IMG/VR virus record: IMGVR_UViG_3300010413_000048
Location: 1-52,435 of that record
Strand: one strand, 5' to 3'
Source of the DNA: a virus
Length of the DNA stretch: 52,435 nt
The stretch's first letter is position 1. Every line of letters begins with the position of its first letter. Both the position numbers and the translations under genes were made by a program. The notes beneath the pieces were generated by a model. The model was not told the DNA's origin, did no database searches, and was given only the letters and a program-made list of their open reading frames with translations. Of this stretch, positions 13,518 to 26,547 are shown piece after piece.

Positions 13518-13673
13518 TTAGTCCTCCCTAATACTCTGATTATCTATTTCTATGTCCATAATATACTGTTCTGACCATAGTAGTTCCTGTTCTTTATTTT
13601 CATCTTCAATCATAACTACTGTTCTTGGTAGTCCTGACTTTTTACTATTATATGTTATCACTAATTTTCTCAT
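13518..13673 (-). CDS. Small hypothetical protein, 51 aa
   Basis: The ATG at 13671-13673 has GGAGG eight bases upstream. The product begins with a strand (MRKLVITYNS) and is otherwise acidic. Not recognised. The DNA just in front of it is a leftover copy of the end of another gene (13663-13700). Confidence 0.6.
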   Translation of the reverse strand: MRKLVITYNSKKSGLPRTVVMIEDENKEQELLWSEQYIMDIEIDNQSIRED

Positions 13674-13700
13674 ACTTCATCCCTCCAGCCTCTTCAGCTA
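13663..13700 (-). pseudogene. Vestige of the C-terminus of the SWIM-finger gene
   Basis: Read leftward, these bases encode AEEAGGMKYEKI. This closely matches AEEAGRMKYEN, the last residues of the gene at 13883-14152, with mostly silent differences at the DNA level. In both places the segment carries the ribosome binding site and ATG of the next gene. It appears to be a duplicated gene border. Confidence 0.6.
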
Positions 13701-13701
13701 C

Positions 13702-13893
13702 TTAGTAATAATAAATAGTTTGTTTATAGTTATCTTCAGTAACAATAGGATCTGGTTTATTTACCATATCAGAGGCATCTCCTGTTTCTATGTATTTTCT
13801 TGTTGCCTCTTCCTCTTCTTTAGATAGTCCTCTAAATGTCCAGCCTTTCATTTGTCTTACTCTACATTGAAATGCAGATGGTCTAATTTTCAT
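13702..13893 (-). CDS. Small basic protein, 63 aa
   Basis: Starts inside the last codons of the SWIM-finger gene, with GGAGG eight bases before ATG. The N-terminus is basic (MKIRPSAFQCRVRQMKGW), the rest acidic and polar. Not recognised. Confidence 0.65.
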   Translation of the reverse strand: MKIRPSAFQCRVRQMKGWTFRGLSKEEEEATRKYIETGDASDMVNKPDPIVTEDNYKQTIYYY

Positions 13894-17415: not shown

Positions 17416-18030
17416 ATGAGACCTGATTATGCACAGATGATTTTAGATGAAATAGACAAGATAGAGCTTCATGAGGAAGCTGAGGAAGCTAATGAAGCTA
17501 TTCCTGAATCTCTACAGGGATTTCCAGAAAGTAGAATAGATAGAAGAGTTAAAGCTAATGGAACTAAGAAGACCTATGACATTCAAAGAATCTGGTGTCA
17601 TCATAAGGAAATGCTTCAGCTTAAGTCCCTTGGTTATACTTGCCCTGAAATTGCACAGATGACTGGATTTAGTGAATGTACAGTAAGAAAGACTATCAGT
17701 TCTGATCTTGGGAGACAAGCCCTTTTAGACATTAGATCTCTTCGTGACGCTGAGTTCGATCAGATGCGTGACAAAGTAATGGAGCTCACCTGGATGGCTC
17801 TTGACATTTATGATGAGACCTTCACTGATCCTGACTCAGCTACTCCAAAAGAACGTCGTGCTGCAGCTCGTGACGTGATTCTTGAAATGTCTGGCCTCCG
17901 TGCTCCAACGCAGATTCAATCTCATTCAACAACCACTGTTCTTACATCTGAAGAGTTAGACGAGTTCAAAGACCGAGGTCGGAAGGCATCATTAGATGCA
18001 GGTAAACTAATTGATATTCCGGGAGAATAA
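17416..18030 (+). CDS. terS: Terminase small subunit
   Basis: The 204-aa product has a helix-turn-helix (IAQMTGFSECTVRKTI, about residues 80-95), a helical middle, and the ending ATPKERRAAARDVILEMSGLRAPTQIQ typical of phage small terminase proteins. The acidic N-terminus is variable in this family. It would recognise the packaging site and recruit the large subunit, which lies 7 kb downstream instead of next to it because an accessory cassette separates them. It is the first gene after the rightward promoter and has a GGAGG site. Confidence 0.8.
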   Translation: MRPDYAQMILDEIDKIELHEEAEEANEAIPESLQGFPESRIDRRVKANGTKKTYDIQRIWCHHKEMLQLKSLGYTCPEIAQMTGFSECTVRKTISSDLGRQALLDIRSLRDAEFDQMRDKVMELTWMALDIYDETFTDPDSATPKERRAAARDVILEMSGLRAPTQIQSHSTTTVLTSEELDEFKDRGRKASLDAGKLIDIPGE

Positions 18031-18033
18031 GAT

Positions 18034-18414
18034 ATGAAAAAGTTACTTTTGACATTAGCTATATTCCTAACCCTTTCATTCAATCTCTTGGCCCAACCTC
18101 AGGTTGAATCCAGAACCTACACCCTCATTTGGGAGGCCTCCACAGGACCTGGAACTGTAGATCATTATATTATCTATTACGGTACTGAGTCTCATACTTA
18201 TACTGAGAGCATACCAATAGGAAATGTTACTACCTACGATCTAACACTTCCTGAAGATGAAAATACTTACTATATAGCAGTAACTGCTGTTGGAATCAAC
18301 ATTCTTGAAAGTGGCTATTCAAACGAAGTAAATACAGCAAGGATGGATGCTCCTAAGAATTTTAAAATCATCAGAGCAATCATTAACTGGCTTAAATCAT
18401 TAGCTAGGAGATAA
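18034..18414 (+). CDS. Secreted fibronectin type III-like protein, 126 aa
   Basis: A Sec signal peptide (residues 1 to about 21, MKKLLLTLAIFLTLSFNLLA) is followed by one fibronectin type III domain: YTLIWEAS, VDHYIIYYG, YDLTLPEDENTYYIAVTAVG and GYSNEV. The C-terminal about 25 residues form a basic amphipathic helix. Fn3 domains in phages are linked to carbohydrate or cell-surface contact. Export by a phage-encoded signal peptide suggests action in the periplasm or on the cell surface. The function is unknown; it may help adsorption, exclusion or lysis. Confidence 0.8.
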   Translation: MKKLLLTLAIFLTLSFNLLAQPQVESRTYTLIWEASTGPGTVDHYIIYYGTESHTYTESIPIGNVTTYDLTLPEDENTYYIAVTAVGINILESGYSNEVNTARMDAPKNFKIIRAIINWLKSLARR

Positions 18415-18417
18415 ACT

Positions 18418-18630
18418 ATGGAAAATTCAAGTTTCTTAACCGAAGATAATGGTAATCCCTCTTGGACCCGTCTCTCAGGAACTGTCTGCCTTATTCAATC
18501 AATAGCAATTTCCTATATAGGAATCTTCAAAGAAATCCCTGATGCTTATCTCTTCAGCCTAACATTCTTAGCAGCTGCACTGTGCCCTAAACTTATTCAA
18601 AAGTTTGTAGAGCAAAAGATAAATAAATAA
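18418..18630 (+). CDS. Holin-like two-span membrane protein, 70 aa
   Basis: Starts with a polar FLTEDNGNPSWTRLSG segment, then two hydrophobic stretches (about residues 24-36 and 42-57) and a charged tail. This layout matches small phage membrane proteins with the NGNPS motif, often annotated as holins. No endolysin is recognised nearby, so the role is inferred. The last codons (KINK and stop) are part of repeat copy 10. Confidence 0.65.
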   Translation: MENSSFLTEDNGNPSWTRLSGTVCLIQSIAISYIGIFKEIPDAYLFSLTFLAAALCPKLIQKFVEQKINK

Positions 18631-18650: not shown

Positions 18651-19238
18651 GTGGCAACTCAAATACCTGGAGCAATCTTTCTTCATATCCCCAAGTGCGG
18701 AGGTACCTGGGTGCGGAACTATTTCAAGGAATCAGGTCTCACCCTTCGTGAACTCGAACCTGAGCACATCAATGCTCATGTATTCCGTACAGAGTATGGA
18801 GATACAGAAGATCTCCTTTGCTGCTTTGTCCGTCACCCACTTACCTGGTACTGTTCCTACTGGCAGCATCGACAGCAGATGGTTAGTAAAAGAAATGGAG
18901 GACCTATTGATACAATAGTAGATCTTCCTTTCATTCAATTCATCGAGAAAGTTTTAGAAGATCTTCCCAGCTACGTAACAAACTTCTTCAACGGCTACAC
19001 CAATCGTTGTAGGGTAATAGGAAAACAGGAAAATCTTAGAGAGGATCTAAACTTAATATTAAGTATGTTAAAAATTCCTTACAATAAGGACTATCTATAC
19101 TCCAGAGAGACTGACAATGTAACTAACCCAACAGCCAAATATCCCTACTCCCTTGCCCTTGAAGTAATGAAAGCTGAACGAGACACTGTCTTACGTTACA
19201 ACTACAACTACATTCCGGAGGAAATAATCAGTGTATGA
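18651..19238 (+). CDS. Sulfotransferase-family protein, 195 aa
   Basis: The N-terminus FLHIPKCGGTWVRN is the 5'-phosphosulfate-binding loop of PAPS-dependent sulfotransferases, and CFVRHPLTWYCSYW (residues about 60-73) is the 3'-phosphate-binding motif. Length and order fit the Golgi/bacterial Sulfotransfer family. Such enzymes transfer sulfate from PAPS to sugars or other hydroxyl groups. GTG start with a weak site. It lies with a second P-loop protein and a glycosyltransferase fusion, so a sulfated glycan is a likely target, whether phage or host. The substrate is unknown. Confidence 0.85.
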   Translation: MATQIPGAIFLHIPKCGGTWVRNYFKESGLTLRELEPEHINAHVFRTEYGDTEDLLCCFVRHPLTWYCSYWQHRQQMVSKRNGGPIDTIVDLPFIQFIEKVLEDLPSYVTNFFNGYTNRCRVIGKQENLREDLNLILSMLKIPYNKDYLYSRETDNVTNPTAKYPYSLALEVMKAERDTVLRYNYNYIPEEIISV

Positions 19239-19725
19239 GTCACTTAAAGAGTTCAATAATATAGTTGTCTCAGGTCCACAACGATCTGGTACACGTATAG
19301 TTGCAAAAATAATTGCTTATGAAACTGGTAAACAATTCATAGACGAGCGAGATCTAAATTTTCATGACTACAGACTCCTCAAATTCTACCTTGAAAGAGG
19401 CAATTTCGTAATCCAGTGTCCTGGTCTCTGTCACCTACTTCACTACATAGAGTTCGAAGATACTCTAATCATAGTATCTCAAAGACCTATCCAAGAAATT
19501 ATAAGATCAGAGCGTCTCCACTGGAGCAATGAAAGTCGACTAATCGAACTCTACAAATATGGACGTTGTGAGGGAATAATCTCTCGCATTAAATACTCTT
19601 TCTGGAGTGGCTATCAGCAACCAATCCTTGGAGATCGAGGAAGAAACATAGGTTATCATTCATTAGAGAGTCATAAACTATTTATCACAGACCGTAAAAA
19701 CTTTAAATGGGATCAGACAGAATGA
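19231..19725 (+). CDS. P-loop sulfotransferase/kinase-like protein, 164 aa
   Basis: VVSGPQRSGTRIVAKIIA at residues about 12-29 is a P-loop close to those of sulfotransferases (GPQRSGT), and IIVSQRPIQEIIRSERL resembles the second sulfotransferase motif. The C-terminal HKLFITDRKNFKWDQTE is shared by various phage P-loop proteins. It starts with GTG, ten bases after GGAGG, inside the end of the gene before it, and overlaps the next gene by four bases. The trio is therefore probably translated together. Confidence 0.7.
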   Translation: MYESLKEFNNIVVSGPQRSGTRIVAKIIAYETGKQFIDERDLNFHDYRLLKFYLERGNFVIQCPGLCHLLHYIEFEDTLIIVSQRPIQEIIRSERLHWSNESRLIELYKYGRCEGIISRIKYSFWSGYQQPILGDRGRNIGYHSLESHKLFITDRKNFKWDQTE

Positions 19726-22526
19726 AAGCACTAATCATAGCCCTCTATCCTTATCAAGCCAAATCCCTTGACGCCTGGCATGATCATGGAGCAGGAATGA
19801 CCTTCACTGCTTGTCGTGAATCTGGCTGTGATGTCGAGTTCCTCGATATGAAAGTCCTCCGTGATGATGCAGAACTTGCAGCAAGAATCTCTATGTCTCA
19901 ATGTGACCTAGTTGCCTTCGGTCTTAAGAGTTCCTTCTATGACATAGGAATGAAGATAGTTAGTATTGCTAAGAAATTAAACAAAAAGATAATGATAGGA
20001 GGATATCATGCAACTGCAGCAGGACATGAACTTGTTGAAAACCCAGACATTGACTATATCTTCTATGGAGAATCAGAAGTTACGTTACCTAAATTCCTTA
20101 AAGATCAATCCAACTATAGAAGAGAAATTTATGGAGATAAACCTCAAGATCTTGACTCTCTGCATTGGTTCGATAGGACAATTTATTCAAATGTAACAGA
20201 AGACTGTTCAACTTGGTGGCATGGTGGGCAACGAAAGAACATGATCTCTGTCCTCTCTGCACGAGGCTGTCCTTATCAATGTCAATTCTGTCAACCTATC
20301 GAAGACAATCACTTCGGGAAGAAGTTACGAAGGCGATCAGTTCCGTCTCTCATTGAAGAACTTCTTCACCTCAAAAATCTTCACTCTCCAGATTCCATCA
20401 TGATACATGATGATACCTTCCTCACTCAACCAAAGTGGATCGAAGAGTTCATCGAACTGTATCCACAGGTCGATCTGCCTTTTTGGGCATCTGGCCGTGC
20501 TGATGGAATCTGTGAGAATGAAGACCTTGTGCGTAAGCTTGTTAAGATTGGCTGGGAACTTGTTTCAGTTGGTTTTGAAAGTGGTTCACAGAGAATACTT
20601 GATCTAATGAAAAAGGGAACCACTGTTGAACAAAATTTAGAAGCAGCGAGGATAATTCATGATACAGGATCTAAAATTTACGGAAACTATATGTTGGGGC
20701 TGCCATGGGAGTCAGCAAAAGATATGCAGGCTACAGCCAAGATGGTTGATCAGATCAATGCAGAAATGCCCTCTTGGGCCTTTTTCACTCCCTATCCAGG
20801 GTCAGGACTTGGAAAAGATTGCATTGAGAATCAGTGGTCTCTTCTTTCGCGGTCCGAGTACGATCGATATCCAGGTGGAAGAAAAGTTAAGTTCGTTAAC
20901 TACGACTACGTCAACAAAGTCTACAAAGGTTTCCGTGAAGAGCCAAAAGAACCCCTCTGCGACATAATCATCCCTGTTTACAACAACGAGGACTTAACTC
21001 TTGCTTGTCTCGAATCTATCAAACAATGTACTACTCCTGGAACTTATCGAATAATCCTAGTTGATAATGCCTCAAGTGAAAAGCAGCGAGTCTCCAGGGC
21101 CATTGAATGCTTTGATCACATCTTTATCGAAAATGAATCTAACGAGGGCTTCGTTGGAGCTATCAATAAAGGCCTCTCTCAATCAACTGCACCTTACGTC
21201 TGCCTTCTCAACAACGACACTCGTGTATCTCCTAATTGGCTCAGCAAGCTAATCAACCATCTCCAGCGTGATCCTAAACTTGGAATCATAGGTGCATTAA
21301 CAGAGGCTGATAAAAGTGGAAATCCAAAAGCAATGGACTCACATCATTCTTTATCTCTCCATAAGCATGGAGTCCTAGTTCCAAACAAAGGTCTCAATAT
21401 GACTCTTGAGGAGGTCAACAGATTTCTTGAAACACACTACCCAAACAGAACCACCGACTGTGCCTTTGTAGCCTTCCTCTGTGCAGTAATTCGTCGTGAA
21501 GTCATTGATAAAGTAGGTTTCCTTGATCCTAACTATGCTATGGGCATGTGGGATGATAATGACTATAATAAGGCGGTTCGCTATGCAGGATGGACAGCGG
21601 AACTAGCTATCGACACCTGCATTTATCATCGAGGTCGTTCTACTTTTAAAATAATCCAAGAGACAGAAAACTTTGATGTAAATGCCTTACTTAAGAAAAA
21701 TAAAAGATACCTCGATTGTAAATGGGGAGTTCTTGATACCTCTATCATCTCTCGTGCTATCTTTGATCAACTTGGGGAGACTGCAAATATAGGAATCCTA
21801 ACTCCTTACCGTAAAGACCTTATCCAACGTTACTTCATTAATTCCCTCAAGGCTCAGATCGATACAGGATTTAACATTCAACTTGTTGTGGGCCCCAAAG
21901 GAAATGAGGCAACTAAAGCAATCGAAAATCTTGACTGGGGAAGTCTTAATGTAGACTTCCTCTATTCAAATGGCCTAGACCTCTGGCGTGAGTCTGTCAA
22001 ACGATCTGGCAACAAGGCCATTGAAGCCGCTGATGGAACACCTGAAATGCTTGTTCGTCAATCAGGACATAAACTAACTTCTACAATGATTCGTATGGAT
22101 ACAGATGATTGGATTGCACCTGGATTTATATCCCATGTCCGATATGTAGAGCAAACCACAGCATTGAGTTCCTTTTTAATCAACTATCAAGTAATTGGTC
22201 AAGACGATGATGGAAAACTTTTCAACATCTATCATCAATTTGACCTAAATCGAATTAGTCCTTTCTTCGCCATAATTCAACATCAGGAACCTAGAAAGAG
22301 TCCTTATGCCAAATGTCATCTTTATATGCACGAACTCTTTCAACATATAGCAACTGTACCACCTGGATACTGTTACACTGTAATTCATGATGAGAATAGG
22401 ATAAATAAGATGAATGATAAAGATAAATATATAATGTTTATTAATACTTCAGTTAAATCTATTAATACTAAATCTCCTGGTCGTGATTCGTGGCAAGAAC
22501 GGATAGCAAGGGCAGTTGCTAGATAA
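19722..22526 (+). CDS. B12-binding radical SAM enzyme fused to two glycosyltransferase-like domains, 934 aa
   Basis: The ATG at 19722 overlaps the preceding stop (ATGA); a start 15 bases upstream has no ribosome binding site. Residues about 1-130 form a cobalamin-binding-like domain (MIGGYHAT, FYGESE). Next comes a radical SAM core with CPYQCQFC (Cys about 183, 187, 190), the iron-sulfur site. From about 410 a family 2 glycosyltransferase follows (DIIIPVYNNED, LVDNASS, NNDT as the metal site). From about 685 a second glycosyltransferase-like domain has MDTDDW. B12/radical SAM enzymes methylate or rearrange substrates. The combination suggests synthesis of a modified sugar on a surface structure. 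Confidence 0.85.
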   Translation: MKALIIALYPYQAKSLDAWHDHGAGMTFTACRESGCDVEFLDMKVLRDDAELAARISMSQCDLVAFGLKSSFYDIGMKIVSIAKKLNKKIMIGGYHATAAGHELVENPDIDYIFYGESEVTLPKFLKDQSNYRREIYGDKPQDLDSLHWFDRTIYSNVTEDCSTWWHGGQRKNMISVLSARGCPYQCQFCQPIEDNHFGKKLRRRSVPSLIEELLHLKNLHSPDSIMIHDDTFLTQPKWIEEFIELYPQVDLPFWASGRADGICENEDLVRKLVKIGWELVSVGFESGSQRILDLMKKGTTVEQNLEAARIIHDTGSKIYGNYMLGLPWESAKDMQATAKMVDQINAEMPSWAFFTPYPGSGLGKDCIENQWSLLSRSEYDRYPGGRKVKFVNYDYVNKVYKGFREEPKEPLCDIIIPVYNNEDLTLACLESIKQCTTPGTYRIILVDNASSEKQRVSRAIECFDHIFIENESNEGFVGAINKGLSQSTAPYVCLLNNDTRVSPNWLSKLINHLQRDPKLGIIGALTEADKSGNPKAMDSHHSLSLHKHGVLVPNKGLNMTLEEVNRFLETHYPNRTTDCAFVAFLCAVIRREVIDKVGFLDPNYAMGMWDDNDYNKAVRYAGWTAELAIDTCIYHRGRSTFKIIQETENFDVNALLKKNKRYLDCKWGVLDTSIISRAIFDQLGETANIGILTPYRKDLIQRYFINSLKAQIDTGFNIQLVVGPKGNEATKAIENLDWGSLNVDFLYSNGLDLWRESVKRSGNKAIEAADGTPEMLVRQSGHKLTSTMIRMDTDDWIAPGFISHVRYVEQTTALSSFLINYQVIGQDDDGKLFNIYHQFDLNRISPFFAIIQHQEPRKSPYAKCHLYMHELFQHIATVPPGYCYTVIHDENRINKMNDKDKYIMFINTSVKSINTKSPGRDSWQERIARAVAR

Positions 22527-22558: not shown

Positions 22559-24988
22559 ATGAAACATTTTAAGAAAATCCTACTTTCAGTAATATTCACG
22601 ATATTAGTCGTCTGTGGAGTTGCATTATCTGACTACTTTCCTGATGTAATAGTAACTTCCCCCAATGGCATGTGGACTGATACTCGTGCTTATTCTTCTC
22701 TTGCAAATGCAATAACTGCTATAGGTGCTAATGTAAGGGATGTCTATATTGTACGGGATGAGGCTTTTGCTACTCAGACTATTCCAGCTAATATAAATCT
22801 TCATATTACAGCTCTTGGATCATTAAGTAACACTGGACAGCTTACAATAAATACAACTCAGATCTTTGCTCCAGCTCGTCAAGTTTTCACTGGCACTGGG
22901 AACATAGACTTTGCTGATGGAACTATTCTTAAATCATCTTGGTTTCAGAATATAGAAAGTGCTTTTGCTCTAACCAATAATGATACTGTAACTCTTCTAA
23001 TGACCAAAGCTTATACAGTCACAGCTTCTTATTCTCCTGGTAATAATGTCCTTCTTAAATGGGAATCTCCTGGAAATGTCCTTACTGTTAATGCAGGTAG
23101 AGTAGTTGGTAATCTACATCTTATCGAAGCTGGTAACTATCAAATCTTCGGTGGTTCAGGTGACTTTGACTTCCTTGATGGAACAAGATTAAAACTTGAC
23201 TGGTTTCTTAATCTTCGTGCTTGTCTTACCTGGGTTGAAGTTGAGAGAGTAACGATAATAGTTACTGGAACTAACACTGTAGATTTTTCAGACACTGCTA
23301 CAAGAAATGAATACTTTGACTTCAAATCAGAACAAGGTAGATTTAATATATCAGTTGGAATAACTTTAGCAATTTATTCTCCTTTAAATGTCTCTGCTCT
23401 TCATAATCAACAAATCAAAGATGGTCTTGGAACTCTTGCATGGACTACTGGAGGTGGAGAAATCTGGCCTGATTGGTGGGAGGAGAATACTACACCTGGA
23501 ACTACTGATATGGGAGATGCTTGGCAGGACTGTATAGATTCTGCTATAGCAGTAACAACTGGACCTAAGCCAATTATAAGAGCTTCTGGAGAATATGCCT
23601 ATACTGGAGACATTGAAACTAGAACAACAACTGACAATACTCTTGAAGGTTTAGTAATTAGAGGAGATAGTGGAGCGCATCGAGGTGATGCAGCTGTAAT
23701 AGAAGGAATGACTACCTTAAAAAATATAGGAACTGGCTCATTCTACTTTGGGCGTATTGATACAGTTGGATTTAGGCCTTGGATGGTAGGCAGTATTCTT
23801 GAAAATATTCAATTTGAGGGTAATACAAATGTAACTACTCAGGGACTATATGTAGCAGGTAATAACTGCGTAATAAGAAATGTTCATATAACAGGATATA
23901 CAAATGCATCTGCTGTTGGATTAAGGAGGACTGGAGAGCTTAATAGCTACTATGATGTGTCTAGCACAAACAACTACGATGGTGGAGCATCTGAGGTAGG
24001 AGCTAATGCTTCAGCAGCTAATAATGCAAATAAGTACTACAATTGTGTATGGAACTCTAATACACGGTATGGTGATAATCCAGTAGCTGAAGTAGGAGCA
24101 AATTATATTAGCTGTCTATGGCAGACAAATGGGGCCGATGGATATAGACATACATCTGCTAGTTATGGAAATGCTTTCTTTGGTGGCTGGTTTGAAGGTA
24201 ATAATGATACCACTGCTGGATATCAGTTTTACTATACTGGAATTTCTTCTGCCACTAGGTCAGACAGGCTTGCTGTCTCTGACACTGTGTTTGGTGGTGG
24301 AGGTGCTTCTGTATCTGGACATATCTATTTAGCCAATACTACATATGCTAAGATCTTTCCTGCATGGTATAATGCTACTAATCAATTTACTAATGGTGGA
24401 GCGAATATAGCTCTGAGAATCAATCAGCCTAATACAGTCATTGGTTCTGAGGGTGCTCCATATCTAGAACAAACTACCCGTACAGTAGCAGGTGCTTCAT
24501 ATGCCAGGTTCAATGTAAATGATGCTGAGCTTGGATTTAATTCTGGTGAAGGTTTTGGTGGTGAGATATCACACTATCCAGGTACTCATGAAACTGGGGC
24601 GGCTTATGTAAGAAATGTTTCGGATAAAGTAGTCGATGCCTCAGGCAATACGAATATGTTTTTAATAACCTTTGATGATAACTATGGTCAAGGATATTTT
24701 ACCCTTACCTATACAGGGGCTGGATCTACTACAACATATGTAGGAATTAAGGTCGTAAGGCATATACAATTAGTTAATAATGTAGCTACGATTACAACGA
24801 TAGGTGCAGATGATTTAAGAGGAAATGCTGCTCCTGCAACTGTATGGACAGATAATCTTGATGGGACTATTCAAGTCACAATTACTAACAACAATGCTGC
24901 CACTACTAGAGGTCATGCAGTACTTGAAGGTTGGGGCGGTGGAGCAGACGGAGCTGAAGAAAGGGGTTTTACTTTCACAGTACAGTAA
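22559..24988 (+). CDS. Tailspike-like beta-helix protein with Sec signal, 809 aa
   Basis: The first 24 residues are a Sec signal peptide (KKILLSVIFTILVVCGVALS). The N-terminal third has a repeated module: FTGTGNIDFADGTILKSSWF, then IFGGSGDFDFLDGTRLKLDWF, and a diverged third copy ending GGGEIWPDWWEEN. Phage tailspikes use this GxGxVxFxxG..YPEWW element before the beta-helix. From about residue 330 the protein is strand- and Asn/Gly-rich like a pectate-lyase helix. It probably binds or cuts a surface polysaccharide. A signal peptide on a tailspike is unusual. Confidence 0.75.
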   Translation: MKHFKKILLSVIFTILVVCGVALSDYFPDVIVTSPNGMWTDTRAYSSLANAITAIGANVRDVYIVRDEAFATQTIPANINLHITALGSLSNTGQLTINTTQIFAPARQVFTGTGNIDFADGTILKSSWFQNIESAFALTNNDTVTLLMTKAYTVTASYSPGNNVLLKWESPGNVLTVNAGRVVGNLHLIEAGNYQIFGGSGDFDFLDGTRLKLDWFLNLRACLTWVEVERVTIIVTGTNTVDFSDTATRNEYFDFKSEQGRFNISVGITLAIYSPLNVSALHNQQIKDGLGTLAWTTGGGEIWPDWWEENTTPGTTDMGDAWQDCIDSAIAVTTGPKPIIRASGEYAYTGDIETRTTTDNTLEGLVIRGDSGAHRGDAAVIEGMTTLKNIGTGSFYFGRIDTVGFRPWMVGSILENIQFEGNTNVTTQGLYVAGNNCVIRNVHITGYTNASAVGLRRTGELNSYYDVSSTNNYDGGASEVGANASAANNANKYYNCVWNSNTRYGDNPVAEVGANYISCLWQTNGADGYRHTSASYGNAFFGGWFEGNNDTTAGYQFYYTGISSATRSDRLAVSDTVFGGGGASVSGHIYLANTTYAKIFPAWYNATNQFTNGGANIALRINQPNTVIGSEGAPYLEQTTRTVAGASYARFNVNDAELGFNSGEGFGGEISHYPGTHETGAAYVRNVSDKVVDASGNTNMFLITFDDNYGQGYFTLTYTGAGSTTTYVGIKVVRHIQLVNNVATITTIGADDLRGNAAPATVWTDNLDGTIQVTITNNNAATTRGHAVLEGWGGGADGAEERGFTFTVQ

Positions 24989-26547
24989 TGGATAATGAAA
25001 CTAGAGAAATACTTTATAACTGCTCACAGAGCACAGAAGTTCTTGCAAAGACCTTCTTTCCTGAGCGCTTTGAGCTAGAGTTTGTTGAAGCAGTCCATAG
25101 ACCTATCTTTGATCTTATTGATGGGCCTGATAATAAAGTAGCAATAGCAGCCCCACGTGGATGGGGAAAGACTTCAATAGTAGGTCTTGCACTACAAGCA
25201 AGACATATCTTGTTTGAACTTTCTGACTTCGTATGTTACATTAATAAGAGTCATGATGCAGCATGTCTGCAGACCGAAAACTTACGTCGAGAGCTTGTTA
25301 CAAATAAAGCAATAAAGCATTTCTTTGGTTCAGTAAAGAGTCGAGGAGCTAACAAAGATGAATTTGACGAAACGTTTAGTAAAAAAGCCTGGGTGGCTTT
25401 TAATACTCTTGTCTGGCCTCGTGGTGCTGGTCAGCAAGTTCGTGGTGTCTTATTCAAAAACTCACGTCCTGGCCTCTTCGTCATTGATGATCTTGAAGAC
25501 CCTGAGCATATCGAGAGTGAGGACTATAGAAGAAAAACCTACGCATGGCTCTATGCAGATGTTATCAAAGCTGTACCACGTATAGGAGCAAAAGCATTGA
25601 CTTATAAGGTAGTCTATATAGACACTCTCAAACATCAAGACTCAGCACTTCAAAAGCTTCTTGATTCCTCCGAATGGAAGTCAGTGCGTCTCGAAGCCTG
25701 CGACGATGAGTTTCATTCTGTAGCACCGAGCTTCATGAGTGATGAGGCAATTCAGAAGGAATGGGAAGAGCATGTTGCATCAGGTCAAACAGATGTCTTC
25801 TTTCGTGAGTTACGTAATCTTCCTATATCAACAAAGGATGCTTCATTTCAAGATGATTACTACAAATACTATAATGTTCCACTTGAGAAGACTTTTAGGG
25901 AAGGAAAGGACATAAAAGTAACAGATGTAGAGGTTCAACTTAATAAACATAATGAATCAATAGTTATTCTTGATCCTGCTAAAACAGCAAATTTAAAGTC
26001 AGCTGATTCAGCTATTGTAGGTCTTGGTCTCGATATGGAGAATGCTAGAGTCTATATACGAGACATTGTCTCAGAAAAATTCTATCCCGATGAGATGTAT
26101 GATGCCTTCTTTGAAATGGCTATAAGACTTGGAGCAAGGGTAGTTGGAGTCGAAACAACTGGAATTGAAGAATTCATCAAACAGCCTATAAAGAACGAAA
26201 TGTTTAAGCGTGGAAAATTCTTTGAAATCATCTGGCTAAAAGCCCGTGGTGGAGAGAATCAGGAGAAGGGAAAGGTTTTACGAATAAGATCAATGGTTCC
26301 CTACTATCGTCTTGGCTACATGTATCATAATGCGAGCTGTCCTAAAATAAAAGATCTTGAGAACCAGCTTCGTATGTTTCCTAGATCAAAACTCTGGGAC
26401 ATCATGGATGCTACTGCCTACTTCATCGAAATGCTTGAACTTGGTGAACGCTACTTTGGAGTTGAAGGAACCGATCCAGATGATCTCGAAGCTGAATATG
26501 CAGATCTTGATTATGAAGAACCTATTCAGAACTGGAGGTATGTATAA
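24988..26547 (+). CDS. terL: Terminase large subunit
   Basis: The 519-aa product has Walker A APRGWGKT (residues 55-62) and Walker B GLFVIDDLED (residues about 166-175) for the packaging ATPase. The RNase H-like nuclease has acidic residues in IVILDPAKT, VVGVETTGIEEF and WDIMDATAYF. Length and order are those of T7-like or P22-like large terminases. Its gene overlaps the previous stop by one base. It should pump DNA into the prohead through the portal (30038-32002). Confidence 0.93.
   Translation: MDNETREILYNCSQSTEVLAKTFFPERFELEFVEAVHRPIFDLIDGPDNKVAIAAPRGWGKTSIVGLALQARHILFELSDFVCYINKSHDAACLQTENLRRELVTNKAIKHFFGSVKSRGANKDEFDETFSKKAWVAFNTLVWPRGAGQQVRGVLFKNSRPGLFVIDDLEDPEHIESEDYRRKTYAWLYADVIKAVPRIGAKALTYKVVYIDTLKHQDSALQKLLDSSEWKSVRLEACDDEFHSVAPSFMSDEAIQKEWEEHVASGQTDVFFRELRNLPISTKDASFQDDYYKYYNVPLEKTFREGKDIKVTDVEVQLNKHNESIVILDPAKTANLKSADSAIVGLGLDMENARVYIRDIVSEKFYPDEMYDAFFEMAIRLGARVVGVETTGIEEFIKQPIKNEMFKRGKFFEIIWLKARGGENQEKGKVLRIRSMVPYYRLGYMYHNASCPKIKDLENQLRMFPRSKLWDIMDATAYFIEMLELGERYFGVEGTDPDDLEAEYADLDYEEPIQNWRYV

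Follow-up and report, generated by a model that had tools for sequence, protein, structure and literature searches.

A four-domain protein of uncultured phages joins B12-binding, radical SAM and glycosyltransferase-like domains and probably builds a decorated glycan

Why would a phage carry a B12-binding domain, a radical SAM (rSAM) domain and two glycosyltransferase-like domains on one polypeptide, and what would such a protein make? The question is raised by a gene in the viral sequence IMGVR_UViG_3300010413_000048 (positions 1 to 52,435, the whole 52,435-nt stretch analysed here, hereafter the window). The first-pass annotation described the product as a single four-domain chain, and this description holds: a frame open from 19707 to 22526 on the plus strand (939 aa) encodes B12-binding, rSAM, GT2 and C-terminal GT-A/Rhamno_transf-like domains. 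The start at 19722, which gives a gene at 19722-22526 and a protein of 934 aa, is preferred over 19707 because it forms an ATGA overlap with the stop codon of the upstream gene and coincides with the start site in most relatives; residues are numbered below as in the 939-aa frame. No transmembrane segment was predicted in the protein. The four-domain form is also present in five further distinct viral contigs (L018, L019, L020, L021 and L022; the contig of L021 also appears as L002, and L029 looks like an identical copy of L022). This recurrence in independent contigs rules out an artefact of assembly or frameshift, the caveat attached to the earlier description. We conclude that the fusion protein is real and conserved, and that it is probably functional.

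The N-terminal half combines a B12-binding domain (PF02310, positions 19764-20096, on the plus strand as are all features of the gene; residues 20-130; E 2.9e-12; 46.9 bits against a curated cut-off of 32.1) with a radical SAM core (PF04055, 20259-20744; residues 185-346; E 2.2e-16; 60.9 bits against 29.5). The previously noted CxxxCxxC site is the CX3CX2C cluster motif C188/C192/C195 (20268-20291), invariant both in a 10-sequence alignment and in further aligned sets. Together, motif and core place the protein in the radical SAM superfamily, and the B12-binding domain ahead of the core is the layout of class B, the cobalamin-binding radical SAM enzymes. Structure comparison of this half returned, among others, OxsB, MgmA, CysS and TsrM. 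It fits no named equivalog: HpnJ and BchE, B12-rSAM proteins among the top NCBIfam matches, score 101.6 and 96.3 bits, far under their equivalog cut-offs of 577.6 and 481.35, and NF033070, the AprD4 family, gives 39.4 bits where 500 are required.

The top fold match of residues 3-417 is AprD4, a radical SAM 1,2-diol dehydratase (PDB 6fd2; Z 27.0, rmsd 3.6, 384 residues aligned). AprD4 resembles the fusion in having a sugar-type substrate but is only 16% identical, has a CX3CX3C motif in place of CX3CX2C, and is a stand-alone enzyme. MgmA, the methyl-coenzyme M reductase glutamine methylase (PDB 9ccb), shares the B12-rSAM fold (Z 26.6, rmsd 3.1, 341 aligned) and is the closest PDB sequence match (E 6e-18 by profile); however, its substrate is a protein glutamine, and it lacks a glycosyltransferase. 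Because the rSAM half is about equally close to AprD4 and MgmA by fold, methylation and dehydration are both possible, with the match to the B12-binding profile favouring methylation. Methylation is not assured, since a B12-binding domain can lose its cobalamin. We propose that this half performs a radical-based change of a sugar, most likely C-methylation and possibly dehydration to a deoxysugar.

The GT2 domain extends over residues 415-675 by fold (20949-21731), and its match to Glycos_transf_2 (PF00535) covers residues 420-603 (E 1.9e-27; 96.7 bits against a curated cut-off of 23.3). The NND motif pointed out earlier, a metal/nucleotide-sugar motif equivalent to DXD, lies at residues 502-504 (21210-21218) and is invariant in the 10-sequence alignment, so that both family features, PF00535 and a DXD-type motif, are present. 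A DDND motif at residues 616-619 (21552-21563), in which D616, D617 and D619 are invariant, is the candidate catalytic base, a role that we take from general knowledge of the GT2 family; the domain includes WDD. By fold, this part is a good match to GT-A glycosyltransferases (Z about 19-21). It would transfer a sugar in the same pathway.

The further GT-A-like domain reported near the C-terminus occupies residues 684-905 (21756-22421), the stretch of about 220 residues just before the tail. Its DTDDW motif, D798-W802 (22098-22112), is invariant in all seven sequences that have the domain. Against Rhamno_transf (PF11316, cut-off 23), the window copy scores 12.2 bits, whereas the relatives L021 and L049 pass with 34.1 and 32.3 bits in matches that span most of the profile; identity in the alignment of this domain is 45-50%. 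Structure modelling of the domain gave a low-confidence result (pLDDT 55.8), with modest fold matches that are mostly GT-A glycosyltransferases (best Z 8.5, rmsd 3.6, 137 aligned); sequence search gave no convincing match to a solved structure. This domain may transfer a further sugar. It is followed by a variable linker and a short conserved tail, SWQERI (22488-22505). An SWxxRI-type tail is kept in most GT2-fused members. We make no claim from its resemblance to NWRxxI at the N-terminus of the major capsid protein, a short match that could be due to chance.

In L049, the same last domain and tail are placed after two other glycosyltransferases, and the trees fit either two gains of this domain or another mix of gains and losses. 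From these two observations, the last domain is probably a mobile module that moves at the fusion site. At the same site, L049 (1243-5813) encodes an acyltransferase, a DegT aminotransferase, a methyltransferase/kinase-like protein and the triple glycosyltransferase.

Do the rSAM and GT2 parts belong together? A three-domain form, 56-63% identical, is present in nine contigs, eight of them viral and one in a bacterial MAG. In L015/L034, the fusion is reversed, with GT2 preceding B12-rSAM in one chain, and in L011, L012, L013 and L030, B12-rSAM and GT2 are separate genes near each other in one locus. Wherever a locus is long enough to judge, the two are paired. The viral scan for relatives was run solely with rSAM peptides and did not select for a GT2 partner, so the presence of GT2 at these loci is independent support for the pairing. 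In every pair compared, the share of differing sites is about half or more at third codon positions and 0.10-0.34 at second positions; judged from this codon comparison, purifying selection acts on the rSAM and GT2 domains and, in the members that have it, on the last domain. Gene fusions are frequent in phages, and the fourth domain changes partners, as in L049, so that unrelated activities might have been joined by chance without a common pathway; but the persistence of the rSAM-GT2 pair in three arrangements across diverged phages makes this very improbable. We consider it very likely, on these genomic grounds, that B12-rSAM and GT2 act together. The reversed fusion and the nearby separate genes thereby back the earlier idea that radical SAM and glycosyltransferase serve one pathway or substrate; the order it gave, a sugar added and then modified, is plausible.

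The MAG contig (L016) was the sole close relative found by the bacterial genome scan, for which two short conserved peptides served as queries. It carries terminase and portal genes and is probably a phage contig in the bin, so we do not take it as a bacterial source of the fusion. Among named phage records, none covers 80% of the fusion protein, and to that extent the first-pass view that this is not a common phage protein stands; within one uncultured phage group, however, the three-domain form is recurrent.

Two further observations concern capsid genes. In the relative IMGVR_UViG_3300020171_000007 (L041:2722-2817, L043), whose contig ends have about 120 bases in common, the major capsid gene looks split by an insert of about 1 kb that has LAGLIDADG-like motifs and a partial group I intron match of 24.3 bits, under the gathering score. 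In L031 (10190-11956), a phage minor-capsid-like protein has a weak intein splicing match.

The gene sits between those of the terminase subunits, all on the plus strand. TerS (17416-18030) matches its counterpart in Desulfofustis phage MD01 (E 8e-13), and TerL (24988-26547) matches PHROG 38 (E 4e-62). TerS is followed by a small fn3-like protein whose N-terminus is hydrophobic and signal-like (18034-18414), a 70-aa protein with a hydrophobic segment that is putatively holin-like (18418-18630), and two sulfotransferase-like proteins. Sulfotransferase membership was judged by PF03567 or PF13469 above cut-off. The first protein (18651-19238), with a HIPKCGGT motif, matches Sulfotransfer_2 weakly, with E 0.019 and 15.5 bits, and its L022 copy with 7e-5 and 23.5 bits against a cut-off of 22. 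The second (19231-19725), with a GPQRSGTR P-loop, is the gene in ATGA overlap with the fusion; it has weak Sulfotransfer_3 matches in relatives and no Pfam match in the copy beside this fusion. Across the group, the neighbours include sulfotransferase-like, GT2, GT92, SAM methyltransferase, hexapeptide acyltransferase and DegT aminotransferase genes, and in several relatives the products of genes adjoining TerS resemble lysis enzymes on inspection. A link to defence systems was limited to a generic weak PADLOC match.

These neighbours bear on what the sugar would be attached to. DNA is a known substrate of phage glycosyltransferases, and weak TAGT matches among the neighbouring glycosyltransferases of relatives would suit phage bases hypermodified with sugars. 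Yet the only base-modifying enzyme among the proteins scanned in the window is an N6/N4 DNA methylase (51355-52407), and sulfotransferase, acyltransferase and aminotransferase neighbours suit glycans better; DNA is an improbable target.

The other two candidate acceptors, the host surface and the virion, differ in target only, and both overlap with a glycan-decorating role. The cassette might remodel the host's O-antigen or capsule during infection, blocking competing phages or keeping progeny from sticking to debris, as has been proposed for glycosyltransferases in hypervariable regions of pelagimyophages (PMC7029224). The signal-like N-termini of neighbouring proteins and the O-antigen-type acyltransferase and aminotransferase genes in relatives agree with this. 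Against it, the gene lies among packaging and lysis genes, suggesting late expression; no integrase was found; the fusion has no membrane-spanning part; and no GtrA/GtrB-like membrane protein was identified. One small multi-segment ORF lies several kb off, at 13552-13827. A host-surface target is a serious contender, if short of probable. Alternatively, a tail spike or capsid protein could be glycosylated, as the clustering with terminase, portal and capsid genes in a late position would suggest. Directly downstream in most of the group lies a gene (22559-24988, plus strand), conserved beside the fusion, for a protein that by inspection is beta-helix/tail-spike-like; its L022 homologue has a weak endosialidase N-terminal match. 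But this protein has a signal-peptide-like N-terminus in 10/10 homologues compared, which is unusual for a tail spike and suggests export rather than virion assembly, and no acceptor sequence was identified. We regard a virion target as tentative.

The reading we favour, and consider rather likely, is that the fusion is a cytoplasmic, multi-step glycan-decorating enzyme. Together with the two sulfotransferase-like neighbours, it would yield a sulfated, radically modified oligosaccharide on an acceptor chosen by the phage, which would be either a polysaccharide of the host surface or a protein of the virion. In this uncultured phage group, the product of the fusion is thus probably a sugar chain with unusual decorations, carried by the host surface or by the phage itself. 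A more specific version, in which one chain couples radical C-modification of a sugar to two successive glycosyl transfers, yields an undescribed glycan, and ends in a transferase that phages exchange as a mobile module, seems rather doubtful. If the favoured reading is true, a phage unites radical chemistry and sugar transfer in one chain, the rearranged relatives offer a direct way to tell which activities go together, and the locus becomes a defined test case for whether phage glycan cassettes alter the surface of the host or cover the virion.

All parts are known kinds of enzyme; the arrangement is one for which we found no description, with nothing relevant in the open-licence literature and none of the 50 BFVD matches listed named as joining rSAM and GT2. 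In BFVD, B12-rSAM and GT2 proteins encoded by uncultured Caudovirales occur singly. The nearest named phage is MD01 (OP947158; MCP 49%, TerL 45.5%), for which a Desulfofustis host was predicted by CRISPR spacers (PMC10370329); it differs in that TerS lies directly beside TerL, without the sugar cassette. GT2 enzymes such as WrtF, TarP and RmlT share the GT-A fold (Z 19-20), a DXD-type motif and an acidic base motif with the GT2 domain but are stand-alone or otherwise fused. A parallel in proposed chemistry class and in sugar substrates, by class rather than by sequence, is provided by the cobalamin-dependent radical SAM sugar methylases GenD1 and GenK: GenD1 is a precedent for sugar methylation by such an enzyme (PMC4340712), although both are stand-alone enzymes of antibiotic synthesis.
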